DNA from: an uncultured Erythrobacter sp.
GTDB lineage: Bacteria; Pseudomonadota; Alphaproteobacteria; Sphingomonadales; Sphingomonadaceae
NCBI RefSeq assembly: GCF_958304185.1
Contig: NZ_OY284433.1
Span: 186,001-250,000, forward strand
Direction of reading: 5' to 3'
Length of the DNA stretch: 64,000 nucleotides
Shown here: positions 10,407 to 28,600 of the stretch, piece after piece
Layout of the letters: every line of letters begins with the position of its first letter
Numbering within the stretch: the stretch's first letter is position 1
Translations under genes and position numbers: made by a program
The notes under the pieces: model-generated
Databases searched by the model: none
The model's input: only the letters and a program-made list of their open reading frames with translations
What the model was told of the DNA's origin: nothing

Positions 10407-12398
10407 GTGCATACCATCCTCATCATCGTTTTTGCGCCGCTGGTTGCTGCCCTGATCGCAGGGTTGGGCAACCGGATGCTCGGCAATGTGGCGGCCAAGT
10501 CCGTCACCACCGGCGCGCTGCTGCTGTCGGCAGGCCTGAGTTGGCCGATCTTCCTCGGTTTTGTCGGCGGGACGGAAAGCGCCGAGGTCGTGCAGGTTCT
10601 GAAGTGGGTCGAGAGCGGCACGCTCAATTTCGATTGGGCGCTGCGGGTCGATACGCTCACAGCGATCATGCTGGTCGTGATCAACACCGTGTCGGCGCTC
10701 GTGCACCTCTATTCGTGGGGGTATATGGAGGAAGACCCGGATCAGCCGCGGTTCTTCGCTTACCTGTCGCTGTTCACCTTTGCGATGCTGATGCTGGTGA
10801 CGGCTGACAACCTCGTGCAGATGTTCTTTGGCTGGGAGGGTGTGGGCCTTGCGAGTTACCTGCTGATCGGTTTCTGGTTCAAGAAGCCGAGCGCAGGCGC
10901 GGCAGCGATCAAGGCTTTCGTGGTTAACCGCGTGGGTGACCTGGGCTTCATGCTCGGCATCTTCGGCACCTATTTGGTGTTCCAGACGACCTCAATCCCC
11001 GAGATCCTGGCGGCGGCTCCGGGCATGAGCGGCTCCACGATCACTTTCGTCGGGATGCGGCTCTACACGATGGATATCCTGTGCATCCTCCTGTTCATCG
11101 GCGCGATGGGCAAGTCGGCGCAGCTGGGCCTGCACACCTGGCTGCCGGACGCGATGGAGGGGCCGACGCCGGTTTCTGCGCTGATCCACGCCGCGACCAT
11201 GGTGACGGCGGGCGTGTTCATGCTGTGCCGCCTGTCACCCATGTTTGAGACCGCGCCGACCGCGCTGACGATCGTTACCATCGTCGGCGCTGCGACCTGC
11301 TTTTTTGCCGCCACGATCGGCACGACGCAGTGGGACATCAAGCGGGTGATCGCCTATTCGACCTGTTCGCAGCTGGGCTACATGTTCTTTGCCGCAGGGG
11401 TTGGGGCTTATGGTGCGGCGATGTTCCACCTGTTCACGCACGCCTTCTTCAAGGCGCTGCTGTTCCTGGGTGCGGGCTCGGTGATCCACGCGATGCACCA
11501 CGAACAGGACATGCGCTATTACGGCGGCCTGCGTAATGTGATCCCGTTCACCTTCTACGCGATGCTGGCCGGCACGCTGGCGATCACGGGGCTGGGGGTC
11601 TATCACCTCGGGATTGGCTTTGCGGGCTTCTGGTCGAAGGACGCGATCCTTGAAGTCGCCTATGCGCGCCACAATGGTGCGGGGCAGTTCGCCTTCTGGG
11701 CCGGAGCCATCGCGGCGCTGCTGACCAGCTTCTATTCCTGGCGCCTCATGTTCCTGACCTTCTGGGGCAAGCCGCGCTGGATCGAGAGCGAGCATATCCA
11801 GCACTCGGTGCACAAGACCCCTGCCGAAGCAGGCGAGGACACCACGGGCGGTTATCATCCGCATGAAAGCCCGATCACGATGCTGATCCCGCTCGGCCTG
11901 CTGACCATTGGCGCGATCGCGGCGGGGCAGGTGTTTGCACCCAGCTTCCTCGACAGCGCAGCCTTCTGGAACGGGTCGATCTTCTACAACGAAGACCTGA
12001 TCCACGCGATGCACGCGGTGCCTTACTGGGTGAAGTACACCGCGCTGATCGTGATGCTGATCGGCTTTGCGGGCGCCTACGTGGCCTACATCGCCAAGCC
12101 AGAAATCCCAGCGAAGTTCGTCGCGACCTTCGGCGCGCTGCATAACTTCGTCTACCGCAAGTGGTACTTCGACGAGCTTTATGACGCGATCTTTGTGAAG
12201 CCTGCCTTTGCGCTGGGGCGCGCTTTCTGGAAACTCGGCGATATCGGCACCATCGACCGCTTCGGCCCCAACGGCATCGCCTGGGCGGTCGAGCGTTCGT
12301 CGGTCGCCGCCAAGTCGATCCAGTCGGGCTACGTCTACACCTACGCGTTGATCATGCTGCTCGGGCTGGTTGCCGCTGTCACTTTTGTTCTGCTTTAG
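10407..12398 (+). CDS. nuoL: NADH-quinone oxidoreductase subunit L
   Basis: NuoL is the distal antiporter-like subunit with a long lateral helix. The 663-aa protein shows many membrane helices and the conserved [53 protein letters not shown] and [19 protein letters not shown] regions (quoted here as family landmarks: [36 protein letters not shown]). The start is GTG 10407, seven bases after the nuoK stop. A hydrophilic stretch around residues 455-495 carries [14 protein letters not shown]. Confidence 0.96.
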
Positions 12399-12412
12399 GA
12401 GCGCGCTTCGTA

Positions 12413-13978
12413 ATGGAAGGCCTTCCCATCCTGTCGCTGATGATGCTCGCGCCGCTCGCGGGTGCTGCGGCGTGCCTGTTCTCCGGCGCGGCCGCGGCCC
12501 GCTGGATCGCGCTCGGGGCGACGCTTGTCACTTTCGTGCTCGGCGTCGTGCTGTGGTCGAATTACCAGATCGGCGGGCCGCAGTGGCAGTTCACCGAGCG
12601 GGCTGAGCTTTTCGCCGGCTTCTCGTGGGCCTTGGGGATCGATGGTATCGCCCTGATGCTTATCATGCTCAGCGTCTTCCTGATGCCGGTCTGCATTCTG
12701 GCCAGCTGGGAATCGGTGCAGAAGCGCGTCGGCGAATACATGGCCGCCTTCCTGTTCATGGAAGTGCTGATGATCGGCACCTTCGCGGCGCAAGACCTGT
12801 TCCTGTTCTACGTCTTCTTCGAGGCGGGCCTCATCCCGATGTATATGATCATCGGGGTGTGGGGCGGGGACAACCGCATTTACGCCAGCTACAAATTCTT
12901 CCTCTACACCCTGTTCGGATCGGTGCTGATGCTGATCGCGATGTTCTGGATGGTGGCTGAGGCGGGCACGTCCGACATCCCGACGCTTATGCAATACAGC
13001 TTCCCGCCCGAAGCGCAGACGTGGCTATGGCTGGCCTTCTTCGCCAGCTTCGCGGTGAAGGTGCCGATGTGGCCGCTCCACACGTGGTTGCCGGATGCGC
13101 ACGTGCAGGCGCCGACCGCCGGTTCGGTGATCCTTGCAGGCGTTTTGCTGAAGCTGGGCGGCTATGGCTTCATTCGCTTCAGCCTGCCGATGTTCCCTGA
13201 GGCGTCCGCGCAGTTTGCGTGGCTGGTGTTTGCTCTGTCGATGATCGCGGTGGTCTACACCTCGCTGGTCGCGCTGGTGCAGACCGACATGAAGAAGCTG
13301 ATCGCCTATTCCTCGGTCGCGCACATGGCGATTGTCACGGTCGGCCTGTTCGCTTTCAATGTGCAGGGGCTGGAGGGTGCCATGATCGTCATGCTCAGCC
13401 ACGGTCTCGTTTCGGGCGCGCTGTTCCTGTGCGTCGGCGTGATCTACGACCGGCTCCACACCCGTGAGATCGCGCGTTATGGCGGGCTCGCCATCAATAT
13501 GCCCTATTACGCGCTGTTCTTCCTGCTGTTCACAATGGCGTCGATCGGCCTGCCGGGCACCAGCGGTTTCGTCGGTGAGTTCCTGTCGCTCGCGGGCATC
13601 TACCAGACCTCGAGCCTCGTGGCGCTGATCTGCACCACCGGCATCATTCTGGGCGCGGCCTATATGCTCTACCTCTACCGCCGCGTAGCGTTTGGCGGAC
13701 AGGTGAACGAGGACGCTGCGGCCATGCGCGACATTTCCGCGCGCGAGTGGGTGATGATGGCCCCGATTGCGGCGGCGGTGATGTGGATGGGTGTCTATCC
13801 CGAAAGCTTCCTTGCGCCGATGCGCGCCGACATTGCTGTGCTGGATGCGCGACTTGCGGCGGCCGCTCCGGCGGGTGATGCGAAGCTGGCTCCCGGCGCC
13901 CCGCGCGCTGCGGCTGCCAATGCGATGCCACATCATGAGGGCTCCGAGACTTCGAGCGCCAAGGAGGGCGCGCACTGA
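12413..13978 (+). CDS. nuoM: NADH-quinone oxidoreductase subunit M
   Basis: NuoM is an antiporter-like proton-translocating subunit. The 521-aa product has about 14 helices, the conserved membrane glutamate in LFYVFFEAGLIPMYMIIG, the [19 protein letters not shown] loop and the SHGLVSGALFL segment. The last ~55 residues after ADIAVLDARL are an Ala/Pro/Gly-rich soluble tail, longer than usual. The stop overlaps the nuoN start by one base (TGATG). Confidence 0.96.
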   Translation: MEGLPILSLMMLAPLAGAAACLFSGAAAARWIALGATLVTFVLGVVLWSNYQIGGPQWQFTERAELFAGFSWALGIDGIALMLIMLSVFLMPVCILASWESVQKRVGEYMAAFLFMEVLMIGTFAAQDLFLFYVFFEAGLIPMYMIIGVWGGDNRIYASYKFFLYTLFGSVLMLIAMFWMVAEAGTSDIPTLMQYSFPPEAQTWLWLAFFASFAVKVPMWPLHTWLPDAHVQAPTAGSVILAGVLLKLGGYGFIRFSLPMFPEASAQFAWLVFALSMIAVVYTSLVALVQTDMKKLIAYSSVAHMAIVTVGLFAFNVQGLEGAMIVMLSHGLVSGALFLCVGVIYDRLHTREIARYGGLAINMPYYALFFLLFTMASIGLPGTSGFVGEFLSLAGIYQTSSLVALICTTGIILGAAYMLYLYRRVAFGGQVNEDAAAMRDISAREWVMMAPIAAAVMWMGVYPESFLAPMRADIAVLDARLAAAAPAGDAKLAPGAPRAAAANAMPHHEGSETSSAKEGAH

Positions 13979-18947: not shown

Positions 18948-21479
18948 TTAAGTTCGGAACCGCTGGATCGCCTGAGCCAACGCCACGTAGAGCTTGCCCA
19001 TGTCTGAACCCAGCATCGTCACGCTCAAGACGTGACCATCGCGGGTCGAGAGCGTCTGGCGCAGCATGGCTTCGAAGTCGTGGATGTAGCGGCTGACATT
19101 GGCCTTGAACACTTCATCCGCGCTGTAGAGCGCGGCTATATCCTTGGCGGTGCCATTGTCGATCAGCCGCACCGCGCGGCGGGTGAAGATCCCGCGGTCA
19201 CCCTTGAGATAGGCTTCCCACGCCGTGTCGGCCACCTCATCGGCCAAGGCTCCGGTAATGTCGATCGCGGCTGAATTGAGGCTGTCGGTGATCAGCGCCA
19301 TGCGCCGGGCGAAGTCGTTGTTGACCTGCTCTTCGGCGAGTTCGCGCGCGTGCATCACTCGCTGTTCGAGATTGCCGGTGAGTTCGTTCACCTTCACCAA
19401 CTGATCACGCAGCTGGATCGCCGCCTCGCGCCCGACGCCTGAGGCGTGAGCGGCTGACTGCTCCAGCTTGCCGAGCGTCGCAGCCGCCTCGTTGCGGAGT
19501 GCGCGTTCGAGCACCTCGACCGCTTCGCCGCCGAGGTTGTTCGCCAGCGCCAGCATCTTTTCGCGCGCGCCTTCATCTAGGGTTGCGAAGGCCCGGGTGA
19601 TCGCAGTTTCCAACGCTGAAAGCGATGCGCGAAGGCTGTCCTGCGTTTCGACCGCCAGCGTGCCGCTTTCCTCCGCCAGCCGTGCAAACCCGCCGCGCAG
19701 GCCTTGGAGCCGGGCGAGGGCATCCTCGGTTTCTTCGGCCAGATGCGACTTGAACCCGGCAATCGCAATTTCAGCCGCGTCGATCTCCGCGCGGGTGCGA
19801 AGGAGATAGTCCGACAGGTCGCTGCCTGCTTCGGTGCTGCGCAGCATCAGCGCCTCGACCTTGTCGGCCCGGGCTTCGACCCCTTCCAGAGCGGTATTGG
19901 CCCCGCTGATCGCGGTGCTGAGGTCTTCGTGGCACGTGCGCGCGCCGGACTGCAAAATCTCCAGTAAACGCACGCTGCTGTCGGTCAGTTGCAGCAATTG
20001 CGCTTCGGTCGCGGCGATCACAGCGCGCTTCTCGCCAAGCTGTTGAGCCAACGTGCCAAGGCCCGCGCCAAGGCTTTCGCGCGCAGCCGTGCTTGTCTGG
20101 TCGATTTCTGCCAACACCCGGCCAAGTTCCGCGACCCGCTCGGTCATTGCTTCGCCTTGCACGACCAGCTTTTCGATTTCGGCAACCTGCGCCTCGCGCC
20201 GCTGGGCGAGCGCATCATCGAGCGCCGCCAGTCGCTGGGCCAACACTTCGCTCGCCTGCGCTTCATGCGTTTCAAAGGCCGCCTGCCGCTGTTCGATCAG
20301 CTCGTCGAACTGGCGGTTGCGTGTCGCCAGCTGCTCGTCGAACTGAACCGCTTCATCACGGAGCTTGGCGATCCGTTCGTTTGCAACGATGCCGGTCTTG
20401 CGGTCGAGCTGGTCGACCAGATTGAGCTTCTCGACCAGCGTTTCGTGCAGCGCGGCAATCGCGGCGGCATAGCTCGTGCGCGCGGTCTCTCCCGCTTCGC
20501 GCAGCTGATTGGCGAGCGCTTCGCTTTGGCTCGCGACGGCTTGCGCCCGCTCGCCATGCGCTGCCAGCGCTTCTTCTTCGAGCGAGGCGATGCGGGTGCG
20601 ATAGGCCTCGGCCTCCGTCTGCAATGCGGCAAAGCGCTGCGTGACGATTGCTTCGATCCGGGTCAGCTGCGCCTCATACTGGCCGAGCGTATCGCCCACT
20701 TGCGAGGTCAGGCGCGTGACCTGCGCCTCACTCTCGGCCCCGGCGAACCCTAGCCGGTCAAACCCGCCCGAAAGCCGCGCCAGCTGATCTTCTGCCACCC
20801 GGCCCGCGCCGCCAATCTGGTTGGCGACATCGCGAGCGGCATTGGCGATCACCGGCAGATCGTCGCGCAGTCGGTTCATATTGCCTAGCGCGGTTTCGCT
20901 GGTGGTGCCGATTGCATCGACCTGCGCGCCGTTGGTGGTGATCAGTGCCTGCAATTCGCCGGCATGGGTGGACAAGCGCTCCGCCGCGATCCGCCCAAGC
21001 GCTTCGAGATCGCGGGCTTCGGCCGCCAGAAACTCGCGCGCCAGGCTCAATTCGCGGTTCACCACCTTAAGCCGCGCTTCGAGAGCGGCGCCTTCGCGGT
21101 TCATCATGGCGGCAGTGGCGGCAAACCGCCGGCTCTCAGCATGTGAGGACCGCATCGCCAACAGCCACACGATACCCACCAAAGCTACCGGCACGGCCCA
21201 GTCGACCAGCCATGCAGCCCACTGCGCGGGCACGGCCCCTCCGCGAATGTCAGCAAGGTGAGCCCAGACGAAAAACCCGCTCCATCCGGCAATCACCAGA
21301 ACCGCAAGGCTTGGCGCGAGCCAGCCCGATCGCATGGGGGAGGGCACGACTTCATCATCCTCGGCCCAGTTTTCGGACAGATCGAGCAGCCCTTCGGACG
21401 CCCCATCCTGCGCATCGGCCTCCGTAAAGGCCGTGTCGTCTGCGCCGTCATCGCCGCTCTTGCGCCCCAACGCGCGCAT
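18948..21479 (-). CDS. Large two-helix membrane protein with a very long coiled coil
   Basis: The protein is about 843 aa. An acidic N-terminus (residues 1-50) precedes two transmembrane helices (about 52-74 and 87-109). Then comes roughly 600 residues of Ala/Glu/Gln/Leu-rich predicted coiled coil (many AQR, AEL, LREE-like heptads), and a compact C-terminal domain with YLKGDRGIFTRRAVRLID and FEAMLRQTLSTRDGHVLS. I do not recognise the family. ATG 21479 is preferred because an AGGA lies about 10 nt upstream; ATGs at 21497 and 21509 are also in frame. Size and shape suggest a structural or septum/envelope role, which is inference. It is divergent from the HPt-like gene. Confidence 0.8.
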   Translation of the reverse strand: MRALGRKSGDDGADDTAFTEADAQDGASEGLLDLSENWAEDDEVVPSPMRSGWLAPSLAVLVIAGWSGFFVWAHLADIRGGAVPAQWAAWLVDWAVPVALVGIVWLLAMRSSHAESRRFAATAAMMNREGAALEARLKVVNRELSLAREFLAAEARDLEALGRIAAERLSTHAGELQALITTNGAQVDAIGTTSETALGNMNRLRDDLPVIANAARDVANQIGGAGRVAEDQLARLSGGFDRLGFAGAESEAQVTRLTSQVGDTLGQYEAQLTRIEAIVTQRFAALQTEAEAYRTRIASLEEEALAAHGERAQAVASQSEALANQLREAGETARTSYAAAIAALHETLVEKLNLVDQLDRKTGIVANERIAKLRDEAVQFDEQLATRNRQFDELIEQRQAAFETHEAQASEVLAQRLAALDDALAQRREAQVAEIEKLVVQGEAMTERVAELGRVLAEIDQTSTAARESLGAGLGTLAQQLGEKRAVIAATEAQLLQLTDSSVRLLEILQSGARTCHEDLSTAISGANTALEGVEARADKVEALMLRSTEAGSDLSDYLLRTRAEIDAAEIAIAGFKSHLAEETEDALARLQGLRGGFARLAEESGTLAVETQDSLRASLSALETAITRAFATLDEGAREKMLALANNLGGEAVEVLERALRNEAAATLGKLEQSAAHASGVGREAAIQLRDQLVKVNELTGNLEQRVMHARELAEEQVNNDFARRMALITDSLNSAAIDITGALADEVADTAWEAYLKGDRGIFTRRAVRLIDNGTAKDIAALYSADEVFKANVSRYIHDFEAMLRQTLSTRDGHVLSVTMLGSDMGKLYVALAQAIQRFRT

Positions 21480-21528
21480 CTGGTGCCGTCCTGCCATAAG
21501 CCACGTCATACCACAGCCGAAATCGGGA

Positions 21529-21567: not shown

Positions 21568-21891
21568 ATGGCTTTCAATCACGGTGCTCTTGATGCGACT
21601 TTAGCGGCAGCGGCCGGCGACGATGCCGCCTTGCTGCGTGAGCTGCGCGCTGCTTTCCTTGAAAGCGCTGCCAAGCAGCTCGATCTGCTCAAGCGCGCGC
21701 GCTGTGATGGCAATTGGCACGTCGCAGCAATGCGGCTGAAGGGGCTTGCGGCTAGCTTTCACGCTGAAGACTTGCTCCAGGCCGCTGAAATCGCGCTCCA
21801 CGCCGCGCCCGGCGAGCCGATGGCGGTTCGCGAGATTGAAGCCGTCCTCGCACGCTTCAACCGCGCGCAGAACCGCAATATCCGTCTCTGA
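21568..21891 (+). CDS. HPt-like helical protein lacking the phospho-accepting histidine
   Basis: This 107-aa all-helical protein has the layout of a histidine phosphotransfer domain: an N-terminal helix pair (LRELRAAFLESAAKQLDLL), then the core LKG motif in RLKGLAASFHAEDLL, and a final helix. In HPt domains the acceptor lies two residues before the Leu of LKG (HxLKG). Here that position is Met55 (M-R-L-K-G), and the nearest histidine, His51, is out of register by four residues. It could therefore bind response regulators or a kinase without relaying phosphate. It reads away from the coiled-coil gene. Confidence 0.65.
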   Translation: MAFNHGALDATLAAAAGDDAALLRELRAAFLESAAKQLDLLKRARCDGNWHVAAMRLKGLAASFHAEDLLQAAEIALHAAPGEPMAVREIEAVLARFNRAQNRNIRL

Positions 21892-22004
21892 TTCGCCGCG
21901 CCGTGCGCTGCGTCGGGGCAAACCGCGCACTGCCGCTTGAACCGCTGCTATGAAACCGCCAATCCATGGTCGCCAGCTGGCGGATCGAGGGAAGGGGGTT
22001 TGGA

Positions 22005-23201
22005 ATGCGCATCGGCCTCATCGCGGCACTCCGGCGCAGCGCGGATGGTAGACTTCGCGCTGAGCTCCCGCTCGCCGGGCGCAGCGTACTCGCCTGGCAA
22101 TCGGATTTGCTGCAATCCTTGGGTGCCGAGCGGGTGCTATGCCTGACCGAGACCACGTCTGACGAAGTGCTGCGATTGCAGCACAGGATGGAAGCGGGCG
22201 GTGCGGCGTTCCATGCGCTGCCGAACTTTGCCGCTCTGCCGGCATTGGTGCGGGCGGAGGATGATCTCATCATCCTGCGCGATGGTCTGGTGCCCGATCC
22301 CGTGGTCGTGCGGGCTGTGCTCGGGGGAGACGTTGCGCTCCAAAGGGTGATCGCGGCCATCCCGGCGGACCACGCGCTCGCTGCTGCTTACCCCGATGAT
22401 TTCGAACGGATCGATGCCGCGCGCCACTGGGCGGGTGTGCTGGTGATGCGCGGCGCGCCGGTGCAGCAGCTGGCCGAGTTCCCGGATGATGCCGACGCCG
22501 TCTCTCTGCTGCTACGACTTGCCTTGCAGGCCGGAACCCCGTGCCGCGACCTCGCTGCGCGCGAGCTGGTGCCGGAGCGCTGGTTGTTGGCCGATGGCGC
22601 AGTTGCCGTTGCCGAGGCCGAGCAGGCGCTCATCGCCGATGCCGCTGCGCCGACAGATTGGCGCGCGCCGCTTGCGACACTTGCGTCCATGCTCGTGCGC
22701 GCCTTGGCTCCGAGGGGGTTTGAACAGGGCGGGCTTGTGGCAGGTGGGCTGGCCTTGGCGCTGCTGCTGATCGGCGTGATGATTGCAGCCTTTGGCCCGG
22801 CGGTTGCGGGATTGGCGCTGGCGGGGATGGGGGCCTTCGCCGCGCGGGTGGCGATCGACTATACCGCGCTGGCCGCAAGGCTCAGGCGGGCGGGCGATCC
22901 CGGGCGCGGCCCAGCCGTGCTGGCGGTGGCGGTCGACGGACTGGCGGCGCTCACCATCTGGTTTGCGCTGTCGCCCTGGCCTGAATGGCAACCGCTCGCG
23001 GTTCTGGGGCCAGTGGTGGTCGGTCTCACTCGCCTTACCGCAGCGCAGCCCGGCGCAATGTTGGCTGCTGCCGCATCTGACCGCGCGAGCTTGCTGCTGC
23101 TGCTGGCGATAGCTGCTGCCTTTGGCGTTTTGCCCGAAGGATTGGCCTGTCTCGCCTTGGGGCTACTCCTAGCTTTGCTACTGCGTCCAGGCCGGGTTTG
23201 A
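22005..23201 (+). CDS. Nucleotidyltransferase-like domain fused to a membrane domain
   Basis: The protein is about 398 aa from ATG 22005, which has an AAGGGGG about 10 nt upstream. Residues 1-200 resemble a GT-A/nucleotidyltransferase core: RIGLIAALRR, then ELPLAGRSVLAWQSDLLQ (like the LPLAGKPVL turn of sugar-nucleotide transferases), and a DDLIILRDGLVPDP strand. The usual G-G-x-G-T-R/K motif is not evident. Residues ~235-398 contain four to six transmembrane helices without the D-x2-DG-x2-AR motif of CDP-alcohol phosphotransferases. I do not recognise the full-length family; the fusion could act on a lipid-linked substrate (inference). Confidence 0.7.
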   Translation: MRIGLIAALRRSADGRLRAELPLAGRSVLAWQSDLLQSLGAERVLCLTETTSDEVLRLQHRMEAGGAAFHALPNFAALPALVRAEDDLIILRDGLVPDPVVVRAVLGGDVALQRVIAAIPADHALAAAYPDDFERIDAARHWAGVLVMRGAPVQQLAEFPDDADAVSLLLRLALQAGTPCRDLAARELVPERWLLADGAVAVAEAEQALIADAAAPTDWRAPLATLASMLVRALAPRGFEQGGLVAGGLALALLLIGVMIAAFGPAVAGLALAGMGAFAARVAIDYTALAARLRRAGDPGRGPAVLAVAVDGLAALTIWFALSPWPEWQPLAVLGPVVVGLTRLTAAQPGAMLAAAASDRASLLLLLAIAAAFGVLPEGLACLALGLLLALLLRPGRV

Positions 23202-23202
23202 T

Positions 23203-23218
23203 CTAACGCCGTCTTAAC
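23203..23218 (+). promoter_or_regulatory. Candidate CtrA box before the helical protein gene
   Basis: CTAA-N7-TTAAC has one mismatch from the CtrA consensus TTAA-N7-TTAAC. It starts two bases after the stop of the membrane nucleotidyltransferase gene and ends just before the first in-frame ATG (23220) of the next gene, so a promoter here would favour a downstream start (23259). It is a visual match only. Confidence 0.4.
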
Positions 23219-23258
23219 TATGTGGGCGCTATGGCCTGCAAGGATGGGCGAAAAGACG

Positions 23259-24179
23259 ATGGACCTGGCCGCCGGCGCTGATGTCGAGGCGATCCTCACG
23301 GATGAACTCGCGCGGGAAGCCCGCGCGCTGGCGGCGGTCGTCCCCGTTCTGCGCCATCTTTTGAGCAGCGATGCTGAAGCGCTGGTGAGCGAGGCGATCC
23401 TCGCCCGAGTCCGAGGCATGATCTTCGATCTCGCCGCACAATTGCTGGCCGCGCTGGCGGGCCGCGATCCTGCCACCTGCGCGCACGCCTCCGCCGACCC
23501 CGCCGTGCTCGACCGGCTTGCCGCGACCCTGATGGCGGACGAGGCGCTGCTCGGCTTCTGCCATGCCCTCGCGGCCGAGGGGCTGATTGCCGAACGCTTG
23601 CACCAACGCCACGCGATTGATCCGGTGCTGAGCCCACTCTTGCAGGAGTTGATCGCCTCCGAAGACCCCGCCATCGCCAGCCTCGCCATGAGCACGCTCG
23701 CGGCGCAATCGCGGTTCGTCCAACGCCAGCGTCGGATGGAGTTGCCGCTGGGCGAATTGCCGGCCGAACTGTTCCACCGCCTGATCGGCAGGGCCCAGAC
23801 TGAAGCGCAGGACGCCGCGGCGTTGGGGCGTTTGCAGGCGGGCTATGACGAGGCGACCGGGCGGCTCGGCCTGCTTGCACGGTTGGTCGCAGCGATGCGG
23901 CACGGGGCGCTTGCCGCGCTGGCGCTGGATCATGCGGGTCTGGCGCTGTTTGCGAGCGCGCTCGCGATTACCACACGCCAACAGCGCGGAGACGCGGTGC
24001 TCGCTTGCCATGAAGGGCAGGGCTTGCGGCTCGCCTTGATGCTGCGGGCGGGCGAGCTGTCTCCTGCCGGGATTGAGCGTCAGCTGCTGCTGGTTGAGCC
24101 GTCGGGCCGCTTGCCGCGCGGCTTTGGCGGAGTTTCGGCCGAACGCGCGGCTGCGCTGCTGGGCGGCGGCGGGCTGTGA
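23259..24179 (+). CDS. Helical-repeat protein of unknown function
   Basis: The protein is about 306 aa from ATG 23259; in-frame ATGs at 23220 and 23244 are alternatives but sit on or against the candidate CtrA box. The sequence is Ala/Leu-rich and almost wholly helical, with blocks such as RALAAVVPVLRHLLSSDAEALVSEAIL suggesting HEAT-like repeats, and a charged turn SRFVQRQRRMELPLGELPAELF. It is loosely reminiscent of DUF2336 proteins, but I cannot confirm this. Its stop overlaps the GTG start of the kinase-like gene, so the two products are probably made together. Confidence 0.7.
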   Translation: MDLAAGADVEAILTDELAREARALAAVVPVLRHLLSSDAEALVSEAILARVRGMIFDLAAQLLAALAGRDPATCAHASADPAVLDRLAATLMADEALLGFCHALAAEGLIAERLHQRHAIDPVLSPLLQELIASEDPAIASLAMSTLAAQSRFVQRQRRMELPLGELPAELFHRLIGRAQTEAQDAAALGRLQAGYDEATGRLGLLARLVAAMRHGALAALALDHAGLALFASALAITTRQQRGDAVLACHEGQGLRLALMLRAGELSPAGIERQLLLVEPSGRLPRGFGGVSAERAAALLGGGGL

Positions 24180-25588
24180 TCGACACGATGGACCGCACCG
24201 ACGGCCTGCTGGGCGCCTATGGCCTCACCGATGCGCGTGACCGGCTGCTGAGCGCCGATGCGCCGCTCGCGGAATTGCAGGAGCGGTGCGGCGGCGATCT
24301 GCCCGGCACGCTGGCAATCCCCGAGCTTTTGGCGCTGGTGCAGCAGGCGCGGCGCATGGGCTTAAAGATCGCGCGGGCCTTCAGCGCCTTTGACGGGGAT
24401 GCCGAAATTTCTGGCTTTGCCCGCATTCACCCGCTGGCCGAGAGTGATGGCGGCGGGTGCGAGGTGCTGGTCGAGAACTGGCAGCGCAACCCGCTCACGC
24501 CCCCAAGTGCCCGCGAATTCGCCGAGAAAATCGACGCGATTGACCGCGCCACCGCCGAAGTCAGCGCCCGGCTCGATGCCCGCCAGCGCTTGCAGGTGTT
24601 GAGCGCCCGCGCGCCCGATACCGCCGCGCTTCAGGTCGCCGCTCTTGCCGCGCCCGGCACAGTATGGAGCGAGCTGGTCGAATTGATCGGCATCGCCCAC
24701 CACCAGCCCTTGCATTGGCGGCTACTCGACGGGGCGACCTGCCGCTTTGCCGGATCGCAGCGCCATTGGCGCGTGCGGCTGATCCCGCTGGGGACGGATG
24801 TGCAGAACCCGGCGGGCTTTGAATTGCTGCTGATCGCCGAGGAGCCGCTCTCCGCGCCGACCGAGCCTGATCCGGCTGAGGACGGCGCACTCGAAACATC
24901 GCCCACGCGGCTTGTCGGTACTGCGCTCACCCCGGTGCTGCGCCAGCCGGTCGCGCGGATCATCGCCAATGCCGAGACGATCCGCGCGCGGCTCGCCGGG
25001 CCGTTGCGGGATGAATACAGCGAATATGCCGGCACCATCGCCAGCGCGGGGCAGCACCTTGCCGCGATGCTGGACGATCTCGCCGACCTCGAAGTGGTCG
25101 AGACCCCCGGCTTTGCCACGGCGAAGGAGCCGGTCGATTTGGCAGATGCTGCCGTGCGCGCGGCGGGGATTCTCGGCGTGCGCGCTCGCAACCGTGACAC
25201 CGTGCTGGTGACCGAGGGCATGCATGGCGAGGCGGTTGCCACGGCCGAGTTCCGGCGGGTGCTTCAGATACTCATCAACCTGATCGGCAATGCGATTGCC
25301 TATTCGCCCGCGGCGAGCACAGTCACGATCACGGCGCACGGAGCGAGCGAGGGCAAGGTGGCTGTGACCGTTGCCGACGAAGGCCCCGGCGTCGCCCCCG
25401 AACAGGCTGAGCGGATCTTTGACAAGGGCGAACGCCTTGGCCGCGATAATGATGGCGGGCGAGATAGGGGTTCAGGCCTCGGCCTCTATATCTCGCGCCG
25501 TCTGGCCGAGGCGATGGATGGCAGTCTGACGGTGGCGAGCGCACCGGGCGGAGGGGCGCTGTTCCGGCTCGAATTGCCGCGCGGCTGA
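24176..25588 (+). CDS. Histidine-kinase-like protein with an intact ATPase domain but no H-box histidine
   Basis: This 470-aa soluble protein has an N-terminal sensory region (1-240) with no transmembrane helix. A dimerisation-helix region follows, then a HATPase_c domain. The H-box SHELRTPL aligns with TPVLRQPV (252-259), so the phospho-acceptor His is Pro253. The ATP site looks complete: N box NLIGNAIAYSP (from Asn368), G1 DEGPGVAP (401-408), G2 GSGLGLYIS (432-440). It could bind ATP and signal allosterically or phosphorylate elsewhere. The GTG at 24176 overlaps the upstream stop; ATG 24188 is an alternative. Confidence 0.85.
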   Translation: MIDTMDRTDGLLGAYGLTDARDRLLSADAPLAELQERCGGDLPGTLAIPELLALVQQARRMGLKIARAFSAFDGDAEISGFARIHPLAESDGGGCEVLVENWQRNPLTPPSAREFAEKIDAIDRATAEVSARLDARQRLQVLSARAPDTAALQVAALAAPGTVWSELVELIGIAHHQPLHWRLLDGATCRFAGSQRHWRVRLIPLGTDVQNPAGFELLLIAEEPLSAPTEPDPAEDGALETSPTRLVGTALTPVLRQPVARIIANAETIRARLAGPLRDEYSEYAGTIASAGQHLAAMLDDLADLEVVETPGFATAKEPVDLADAAVRAAGILGVRARNRDTVLVTEGMHGEAVATAEFRRVLQILINLIGNAIAYSPAASTVTITAHGASEGKVAVTVADEGPGVAPEQAERIFDKGERLGRDNDGGRDRGSGLGLYISRRLAEAMDGSLTVASAPGGGALFRLELPRG

Positions 25589-25833: not shown

Positions 25834-27120
25834 TTATCGTTGATCGAGCGAGATGTAATCGCGCTCAGGCGGCCCAGTGTAAAGCTGGCGCGGGCGCCCG
25901 ATTTTCTGGCCGGGATCGCTGATCATTTCGTTCCACTGCGCCACCCAGCCCACGGTGCGGGCCAGTGCGAAGAGCGCGGTGAACATGGTGGTCGGGAAGC
26001 CGATCGCCGAGAGGATGATGCCCGAATAGAAATCGACGTTCGGGAACAGCTTCTTCTCGATGAAGTAGGGATCGTTCAGCGCGATCTCCTCCAGCCGCAG
26101 CGCGGTTTCGAACAGCGGGTCGGTGACCTTCAGCGCTTCGAACACCTCACGCACAGTCTTCTGCATCACCGTCGCGCGCGGGTCGTAGTTCTTATACACG
26201 CGGTGGCCGAAGCCCATCAGGCGGAACGGATCGTTCTTGTCCTTCGCGCGCTCGATATAGTGCGGGATCTTATCGGGCGTGCCGATTTCCTTGAGCATGT
26301 TGAGCGCTGCTTCATTCGCGCCGCCATGCGCCGGGCCCCACAGGCAGGCGATACCGGCCGCGATGCAGGCAAACGGGTTCGCGCCCGAGGAACCGGCGAG
26401 CCGCACGGTCGAGGTCGAGGCGTTCTGTTCGTGATCGGCGTGGAGGATGAAGATGCGGTCCAGTGCGCGTTCAACCACCGGGTTCACAATGTAGGGCTCA
26501 GCCGGAACGCCGAAGGTCATGCGCAGGAAGTTGCCGGTGTAGCTCAGCGAGTTGTCCGGATAGACGAATGGCTGGCCGACCGAATATTTGTACGCCATCG
26601 CCGCAATTGTCGGCATCTTGGCGATCAACCGGTGCGAGCTGATCGTGCGGTGGGTGGGATCGGAAATGTCGGTGCTGTCGTGATAGAACGCCGACAGCGC
26701 GCCGACCACGCCGCACATGATCGCCATCGGGTGCGCATCGCGGCGGAACCCGCGGTAGAAGGTCATCAGCTGCTCGTGCAGCATTGTGTGGCGGGTGATG
26801 GTGTAGCTGAAGTCGTCGAGCTCGTCCTTGCTCGGCAACTCGCCATTGAGCAGCAGATAGCTGACTTCCATGAAGCTGGAATGTTCGGCCAGCTGGCCGA
26901 TCGGGTAGCCGCGGTGCAGCAGCACGCCTTCATCGCCATCGATATAGGTCAGCGCGCTTTCGCAGCTGGCGGTCGAGGTGAAGCCCGGATCGAAGGTAAA
27001 GGCCCCGGTTTGTGCGTAGAGCTTGCGGATGTCGATCACATCCGGCCCGGTGCTGCCTTCGAGCACGGAATAGTCGAAGGATTTCCCCCCGATTTCGAGT
27101 TTCGCCAGCTTGTCTGCCAC
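25834..27120 (-). CDS. gltA: Citrate synthase (type II)
   Basis: GltA condenses oxaloacetate and acetyl-CoA to citrate, entering the TCA cycle. The 428-aa product has the active-site segments [23 protein letters not shown] and [14 protein letters not shown], plus an N-terminal beta domain typical of Gram-negative type II enzymes. The start is GTG 27120, with AGGAGA about 8 nt upstream; longer in-frame extension to 27228 has no family resemblance. It follows gltX by 43 nt. Confidence 0.97.
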
Positions 27121-27163
27121 GATGTTTCTCCTGTCCAAGTTTTCTGCCCCCGCAGCGGCGCGG

Positions 27164-28600
27164 CTACGCAGCCTGTGCGTCGAGCCGAGCGAGAGCTTCG
27201 TCCCGGCCCAGAAGGACCAGTACGTCAAAGATACCGGGTGAGGTGGTCGTCCCGGTCAGCGCCGCGCGCATCGGCTGCGCCAGCTTGCCAAGTCCCAATC
27301 CCTGCTCCTCGGCGAGCGCCTTCGTAGTGGCTTCGAGCGCCTCGCTTGTCCAGTCGTTTTGCGCAGCCAGATGGTCGTGAATTGTGCGCAGGATCGCGGG
27401 CGCTTCGCCTTCCAGTAGGGCAGCTGCCTTCTCAGTCATGGTGAGCGGACGTTCGGCGAACAGAAATGCCGCGCCTTCAACCACTTCATTGAGGTTCTTC
27501 GCGCGCACTTTGAGCACCGGCATCGCGCGGGCGAGCAGGGCTTCATCAGCCGTCTCGCCAATCCGCGCGGCGACCAATGCTGCGAGGCGGGCATCCTCGG
27601 CTTCACGCAGGTAATGGCCGTTCAGGTTTTCGAGCTTCTTCATGTCGAAGCGCGACGGGCTCTTGCCGACACCGGCCAGATCGAACAGCGCGACCGCTTC
27701 GTCGCGGGTGATTTCCTCGCGGTCGCCGTGGCCCCAGCCCAGACGCAGCAGGTAGTTGAACAGCGCTTCAGGCAGGATGCCGAATTCGTCGCGATAGGCC
27801 TCAACCCCCAGCGCACCGTGGCGCTTGGACAGTTTCGCCCCGTCGCTGCCGTGGATCAGCGGGATGTGGGCATAGACCGGATCGGGCCAGTTACCCTCTA
27901 TAGCGTTCATCGCGCGGTTGATCGGCAGCTGGCGGAAGGCGTTGTTGAGGTGATCGTCGCCGCGGATGACGTGGGTCACGCCCATGTCGTGATCATCGAC
28001 CACCACCGCGAGCATATAGGTCGGCGTCCCGTCCGCGCGCAGGATGATGTAATCGTCGATTTCCTCGTTCCTCACCGTCACCGCGCCCTGCACCTGGTCG
28101 TGGATGGTGACTTCGCCCTCGGTCGGAGTCTTGAGGCGGATGGTGAAAGGCGCGCCTTCCGGGGCCTCCGACGGATCGCGGTCGCGCCAGCGCCCGTCAT
28201 AGCGCAGGGGTTGCTTGTTCATGCGCTGATCGTTGCGCATCGCTTCTAGCTCTTCCGGGGTGGCAAAGCACTTGTAAGCGTGGCCTGCTTTCAGCAATTG
28301 CCACGCGACTTCGGCATGGCGCTCGGCCCGGTCGGACTGGAACACCGGCGGCGCGTCGTAATCGAGCCCGAGCCAATCGAGCCCTTCGATGATCGCGTCA
28401 ATCGCCGCCTGCGTGGAACGCTTGGCGTCGGTGTCCTCGATCCGCAGCAGCGTGCGACCGCCATGGTGCCGAGCATAGAGCCAGTTGAACAGCGCGGTGC
28501 GCGCGCCGCCGATATGCAGGAACCCGGTGGGTGAGGGGGCGAAGCGGGTCACGACTTCGCCCTGCGCGCTTGCGAGGGGGGTGCTGCTTTCGCTTGCCAT
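27164..28600 (-). CDS. gltX: Glutamyl-tRNA synthetase
   Basis: This class I aminoacyl-tRNA synthetase charges tRNA-Glu (and in many alphaproteobacteria tRNA-Gln, followed by amidation). The 478-aa protein has the HIGH motif in [20 protein letters not shown], the KMSKS-equivalent KLSKRHGA, and a C-terminal helical anticodon-binding domain. I use ATG 28600, giving [20 protein letters not shown]. It starts a leftward run with gltA and is divergent from comEC. Confidence 0.96.

Follow-up and report, generated by a model that had tools for sequence, protein, structure and literature searches.

Gene content of the locus

The window, which is the whole 64,000-nucleotide stretch of DNA that was analysed, lies in a 3.29-Mb genome; among its named matches, Erythrobacter and Porphyrobacter come closest. 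Four forward-strand genes and a fifth, divergent from the first of them, are considered here, together with the acceptor position and ATP-site motifs of the kinase-like protein:

18948..21509, reverse strand: 853-aa coiled-coil membrane protein, divergent from the HPt-like gene, with hydrophobic segments at residues 63-83 and 97-120 and a conserved C-terminal domain (residues ~700-850)
21568..21891, forward strand: HPt-like protein, 107 aa, with five predicted helices and Met55 (21730-21732) at the acceptor position
21966..23201, forward strand: ntp, with a MobA-type nucleotidyltransferase-like domain and, beyond it, hydrophobic segments (residues 251-293, 315-337, 364-384 and 386-407)
23220..24179, forward strand: all-helical protein, DUF2336 by its syntenic relatives, with a start possibly at 23244 or 23259
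24176..25588, forward strand: histidine-kinase-like protein, 470 aa, with a family-specific N-terminal region, a HisKA domain without the acceptor His, and HATPase_c
24932..24934, forward strand: Pro253 codon, occupying the phospho-acceptor site of the kinase-like protein (LTPVLRQPV versus SHELRTPL)
25277..25303, forward strand: N box, NLIGNAIAY, residues 368-376
25376..25390, forward strand: G1 box, DEGPG, residues 401-405
25469..25495, forward strand: G2 box, GSGLGLYIS, residues 432-440

The divergent coiled-coil gene was omitted from a preliminary description of this DNA, in which the helical protein was called unknown. Its syntenic relatives suggest a DUF2336 protein instead: PF10098 (DUF2336) is matched by 5 of 39 syntenic alignment members (best 8e-17), with no match for the window protein itself. 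The structure model of the window protein has a pLDDT of 93.6, and its comparison with solved folds gave no match. Among openly licensed PubMed Central full texts, no paper on DUF2336 was found, and the cluster would supply a context for this domain. For ntp, relatives suggest a true start at 22005. The kinase-like protein matches HATPase_c at 92.3 bits (cut-off 26.4) and HisKA at 28.4 bits (cut-off 26.9), and a scan of it for hydrophobic segments found none. The HPt-like protein scores 14.8 bits against PF01627, below the gathering cut-off of 24.6, and its structure model has an HPt-like fold in which a four-helix bundle is present.

Loci compared

With the kinase-like protein as query, 69 loci were recovered; 48 (L009-L056) were retained, and 21 with matches of 27-40% confined to the kinase domains were discarded. 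Wherever the retained loci cover them, the sequences around both acceptor sites show strong conservation. The main count comprises 158 loci, namely these 48, 90 from an order-level search (60 of them with ~7 kb flanks), and 20 centred on the HPt gene; loci were fetched on the strength of a match to the HPt, kinase or DUF2336 protein. Score floors applied before counting were 230 bits for the kinase, 60 for HPt, 60 for ntp, 30 for DUF2336 and 100 for the coiled-coil protein, and a gene described as absent or undetected among the 158 loci is one with no match above these floors. Long loci are those of more than 9000 bases (127 of 158). After removal of HPt rows gapped at the acceptor site, the kinase set had 147 rows, 135 of them distinct, and the HPt set 125, of which 123 are distinct. 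Distinct-sequence counts were used because genomes carrying G labels may share species with the named loci and because L084 comes from the genome of the window itself. A separate sample of low-scoring kinases held 30 rows, of which one from another family with a canonical SHELRTPL (L267) was excluded, leaving 29 family rows.

Loss of the acceptor histidines

The preliminary description reported that both expected phospho-acceptor histidines are missing, with TPVLRQPV in place of SHELRTPL in the kinase-like protein and Met in the HPt-like protein. Both readings are borne out at Pro253 and Met55. In the main kinase set, His occupies the acceptor column in none of 147 rows, and addition of the low-scoring rows brings the count to 2 of 176, both from the same genus; the HPt-like acceptor column has His in none of 125 rows. 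The outcome that would have told against the earlier reading, histidines in most orthologues, is thus not what was observed. The residue that replaces the kinase histidine is Pro in 123 of the 135 distinct sequences, followed by Arg (4), Ala (3), Ser (2), Gln (2) and Asn (1), while the 29 low-scoring family kinases are more mixed (Arg 9; Gly 6; Asp 3; Glu, Pro and His 2 each; Gln, Asn, Thr, Ser and Ala 1 each). The acidic residue that follows the acceptor is also lost: it is Val254 in the window kinase, and the 135 distinct kinases have Val 90, Ala 38, Leu 2, Ile 2, Gly 2 and Ser 1 at this position, with no acidic residue. Other parts of the motif are retained, with Arg at +3 in 129 of 135 and Pro at +5 in all 135. 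Additionally, the N, G1 and G2 boxes, previously noted as complete in the window kinase, are near-invariant among the distinct kinases.

In the HPt-like family, nine kinds of residue are found at the acceptor site among 123 distinct sequences (Met 68, Leu 25, Gln 10, Trp 7, Glu 5, Ala 4, Tyr 2, Ser 1, Arg 1). The motif around the site reads RCDGNW(x)VAAMRLKGLAASF, and the column of Met55 is His in all six canonical HPt relatives that were aligned, drawn from eight weak matches in the class. A misaligned acceptor was considered and rejected: the only other columns in which more than a fifth of the proteins have His are 65 (84/123) and 51 (29/123), and neither is constant. The flanking residues are largely kept (Arg+1 in 121, Lys+3 in 102 and Gly+4 in 113 of 123), as would be expected if the HPt-like protein still docks receivers. 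Therefore, the suggestion that the Met and Pro replacements are themselves conserved holds for the absence of His and not for the specific residues, Pro being typical of a part of the family only. Because the replacing residue varies, Pro and Met are lineage features, and the common trait is the lack of a working acceptor. Just before the HPt acceptor helix, an RCDxNW motif (21700-21720) is present in most lineages and has been lost in putatively Sphingomonas-like ones.

The two His-bearing family kinases are at L268:8279-9748 (IDHSFKPPL) and L269:7898-9337. Neither has an acidic residue after the His, and a search of the two loci for an HPt match found none.

Gene order and separable modules

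The expectation of a conserved gene order was confirmed, as 93 of the 127 long loci have the divergent coiled-coil gene, HPt, ntp, DUF2336 and kinase in exactly that order. In 13 long loci the coiled-coil gene, ntp, DUF2336 and kinase are kept and HPt is undetected, and in two further loci (L046 and L138) HPt, DUF2336 and kinase are kept and ntp is undetected. The coiled-coil gene is the divergent neighbour of HPt in 20 of 20 HPt-centred loci, and is thus its most constant neighbour; in 8 of these 20, ntp, DUF2336 and kinase are undetected within ~8 kb. HPt and kinase are over 200 kb apart in two genomes, G174 and G005. HPt and the coiled-coil gene are therefore separable from ntp, DUF2336 and kinase, and the cluster is best described as two linked modules. 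The 13 loci without HPt and the 8 without the other three genes do not support the earlier view of the two degenerate proteins as an obligate pair.

Housekeeping genes around the cluster are kept in place as well. Among 60 loci (L108-L167), gltA was found in 58, gltX in 57, rnj in 48, DUF1467 in 48 and coaX in 46. For instance, the citrate synthase gene gltA (25834-27228, reverse strand, in the window) is convergent with the kinase gene and no more than 1 kb from it in 53 of the 60. Since such neighbours are also kept in place, adjacency alone proves no joint function, and the pattern of separation is stronger evidence than adjacency for a link between HPt and the coiled-coil gene.

Distribution and origin of the kinase-like family

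A profile of the kinase-specific N-terminal region matched 219 of 297 genomes of the order. Within the GTDB family of the window, 218 of 236 genomes were matched, a few of them weakly (counted by hand from the listing), and in the class 11 of 241 were matched, comprising four strong matches from the same family and seven weak matches from others. Of the 297 genomes of the order, 172 have the HPt-like protein, six of these as weak matches outside the family; a class-level search matched it in 14 of 387 genomes, with six strong matches, all from the same family, and eight weak ones.

To place the kinases, a tree was built from 56 catalytic regions chosen from a pool of 197 (40 of the family, 11 from kinases of the same genome and 5 from another family of the order). 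The 40 sampled family kinases form one side of a branch with support of 98/100. This grouping fits a single origin, in a tree that is unrooted and has several ordinary kinases on long branches. The His-bearing pair falls somewhere inside the family. The placement of the nearest ordinary kinase, f4_L270, has weak support (48/77). It is a PAS-type kinase with an intact SHELRTPL, encoded in another family of the order directly downstream of a DUF2336-like gene (L270:7166-10097). This arrangement, seen in one genome and weakly supported in the tree, would agree with a DUF2336-kinase pair whose acceptor disappeared in the ancestor of the Sphingomonadaceae. The loss looks ancient and maintained rather than a sign of decay. 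A second helical gene of similar appearance lies at 12104-13210 of the same locus.

The kinase-like protein was also considered as the DivL of this genome, and this was ruled out. The genome encodes another kinase, of 787 aa (L174, G000:C1:534500-538500), whose SYEFRTPL has the DivL-type Tyr in place of the acceptor; it falls outside the family group, in a tree that contained no named DivL.

Proposed function and alternatives

With the histidines gone from most of the family, a conserved gene order and a retained ATP site, decay is unlikely, and a phosphorelay through both acceptor sites would, judging from the sequences, be very unlikely. The reading that we favour, with somewhat less than even confidence, is an ancient pseudo-two-component cluster whose ATP-binding pseudokinase acts by docking and allostery, much as DivL does. 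As a pseudokinase, the kinase-like protein would form dimers and bind ATP or ADP but, as both the acceptor His and the following acidic residue are missing, would be unable to phosphorylate itself. A partner, most probably a receiver domain, may dock on its retained HisKA dimer surface, and either its shape or the partner that is held would switch with the bound nucleotide, in the manner of DivL. Among candidates for a direct partner, DUF2336, which adjoins the kinase in most loci, would be the likeliest. The HPt-like protein, being non-phosphorylatable, may dock a receiver or a kinase and would be tied to the divergent membrane coiled-coil protein, presumably a scaffold; it is likely to be an accessory with no obligate pseudokinase partner. 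Signalling by binding or allostery is what we infer from these features. Against this interpretation count the same-genus kinases with His in the acceptor column, the separate loss or relocation of HPt and kinase in some loci, and the similarly conserved housekeeping neighbours.

A more far-reaching version, which we regard as rather unlikely, is that nearly all Sphingomonadaceae possess a complex of enzyme folds that perform no chemistry save ATP binding. It would comprise the pseudokinase, a pseudo-HPt in many lineages, a membrane pseudo-nucleotidyltransferase, a DUF2336 adaptor and a coiled-coil membrane scaffold, with the ATP-driven shape change of the pseudokinase replacing phosphotransfer as the signal.

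The separable modules could also be read differently. Arabidopsis AHP6 is a pseudo-HPt and negative regulator that is thought to compete with working HPts (PMC7402358). By analogy, the HPt-like protein may be a decoy that is placed by the coiled-coil protein and blocks the receivers or hybrid kinases of working phosphorelays, the kinase-like protein being a mere chromosomal neighbour. The 8 HPt-centred loci that keep HPt and the coiled-coil gene with no kinase operon nearby, the 13 long loci that retain that operon without HPt, the HPt-like fold of the model and the AHP6 precedent all agree with such a role. So do three other HPt matches above the Pfam cut-off in the window's genome. However, the genes are contiguous and co-directional in most loci, the five-gene order prevails, and the kept Lys+3 and Gly+4 fit docking but are silent on the partner. 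On the whole, a decoy of this kind is doubtful.

It is less probable that the acceptor has moved, such that the kinase-like protein phosphorylates its own His294 or a residue of a partner, e.g. DUF2336. His294 lies in the second HisKA helix and might serve as acceptor instead, which would count against the pseudokinase reading: 131 of the 135 distinct kinases and all 29 low-scoring family rows have it, and the near-invariant ATP boxes are also as this explanation would have them. However, the residue after the lost His is never acidic. Moreover, His is found at the equivalent position in an ordinary kinase of the window's genome (L168), which has a normal acceptor His too, and in the hybrid kinase 6qrj, and His294 may therefore be structural.

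A role in membrane or polysaccharide metabolism, with ntp as the business end under regulation by the pseudokinase and DUF2336, is more improbable still. In most loci ntp precedes DUF2336 and kinase, which would suit such a role. The preliminary description called ntp a nucleotidyltransferase-like membrane protein; it has hydrophobic segments, and PF12804 is weakly matched by 6 of 11 alignment members (best 2.3e-4), with no match for the window protein itself. Against the role, no catalytic glycine loop was visible in the ntp alignment, ntp is the least identical of the four proteins in most loci, and it is undetected in the two loci that have HPt, DUF2336 and kinase without it.

Finally, that the genes are decaying, functionless remnants is extremely improbable: the residues at both acceptor sites drift among lineages and HPt is missing from some, but the frames are open, the order is kept, the ATP boxes are near-invariant family-wide, the HPt-like protein is 63-98% identical to the window copy over the matched stretch (L009-L056, where found), and the kinase profile occurs in most genomes of the order, so that a pseudogene was rejected here as it had been, for the kinase, in the preliminary description.

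Comparison with known systems

The favoured pseudokinase reading has its closest parallel in Caulobacter DivL, which according to PMC4211667 has Tyr at the acceptor site and no autokinase activity, senses DivK~P in a phospho-specific manner and binds ATP weakly. The two share HisKA, HATPase_c and a family-wide replacement of the acceptor His, and DivL signals by docking to a response regulator instead of through kinase activity (PMC4211667). In contrast, DivL has Tyr (Ala in one species) where the cluster kinases have Pro, Arg, Gly and others, and the ATP boxes of the cluster kinases are near-invariant whereas DivL binds ATP weakly. Because of that weak binding, the strongly kept ATP boxes suggest a function that DivL is without, which counts against the favoured reading. 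The cluster would be a natural test of the role of the ATP pocket in a bacterial kinase unable to autophosphorylate.

AHP6 and the HPt-like protein are alike in being HPt proteins with the acceptor His replaced; the latter is bacterial, has a variable replacing residue, and adjoins the genes of a membrane coiled-coil protein and a pseudokinase. The HmrABCX cluster of Caulobacter likewise combines a kinase with a membrane protein and an HPt candidate of 108 aa that is atypical in lacking HxxKG (PMC11481889). However, HmrB is predicted to be a dimerising helical hairpin and requires its His50 and His74, whereas the HPt bundle of the present cluster is complete in one chain and without an acceptor. 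Single pseudokinases (DivL) and single pseudo-HPts (AHP6) are already known, and the present case is a family-wide cluster that holds both. No description of the cluster was found among the literature matches listed, as judged from titles and abstract openings.

TipN has a two-segment architecture, and the 853-aa neighbour, with a pair of hydrophobic segments near its N terminus and extended stretches resembling coiled coil, is taken here to be a possible relative on the basis of architecture. Many genomes of the class encode the C-terminal domain, so that identity with TipN is no more than a possibility: the profile of the 853-aa protein matched 56 of 241 genomes (E <= 1e-10), mostly via that domain, in ORFs of ~500 to 2400 codons. 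TipN itself is a coiled-coil protein with a polar scaffolding role (PMC7083601). The same paper describes a cell-cycle role for Caulobacter citrate synthase that emerged from work on tipN mutants, and the presence of a citrate synthase gene next to this cluster is probably a coincidence.
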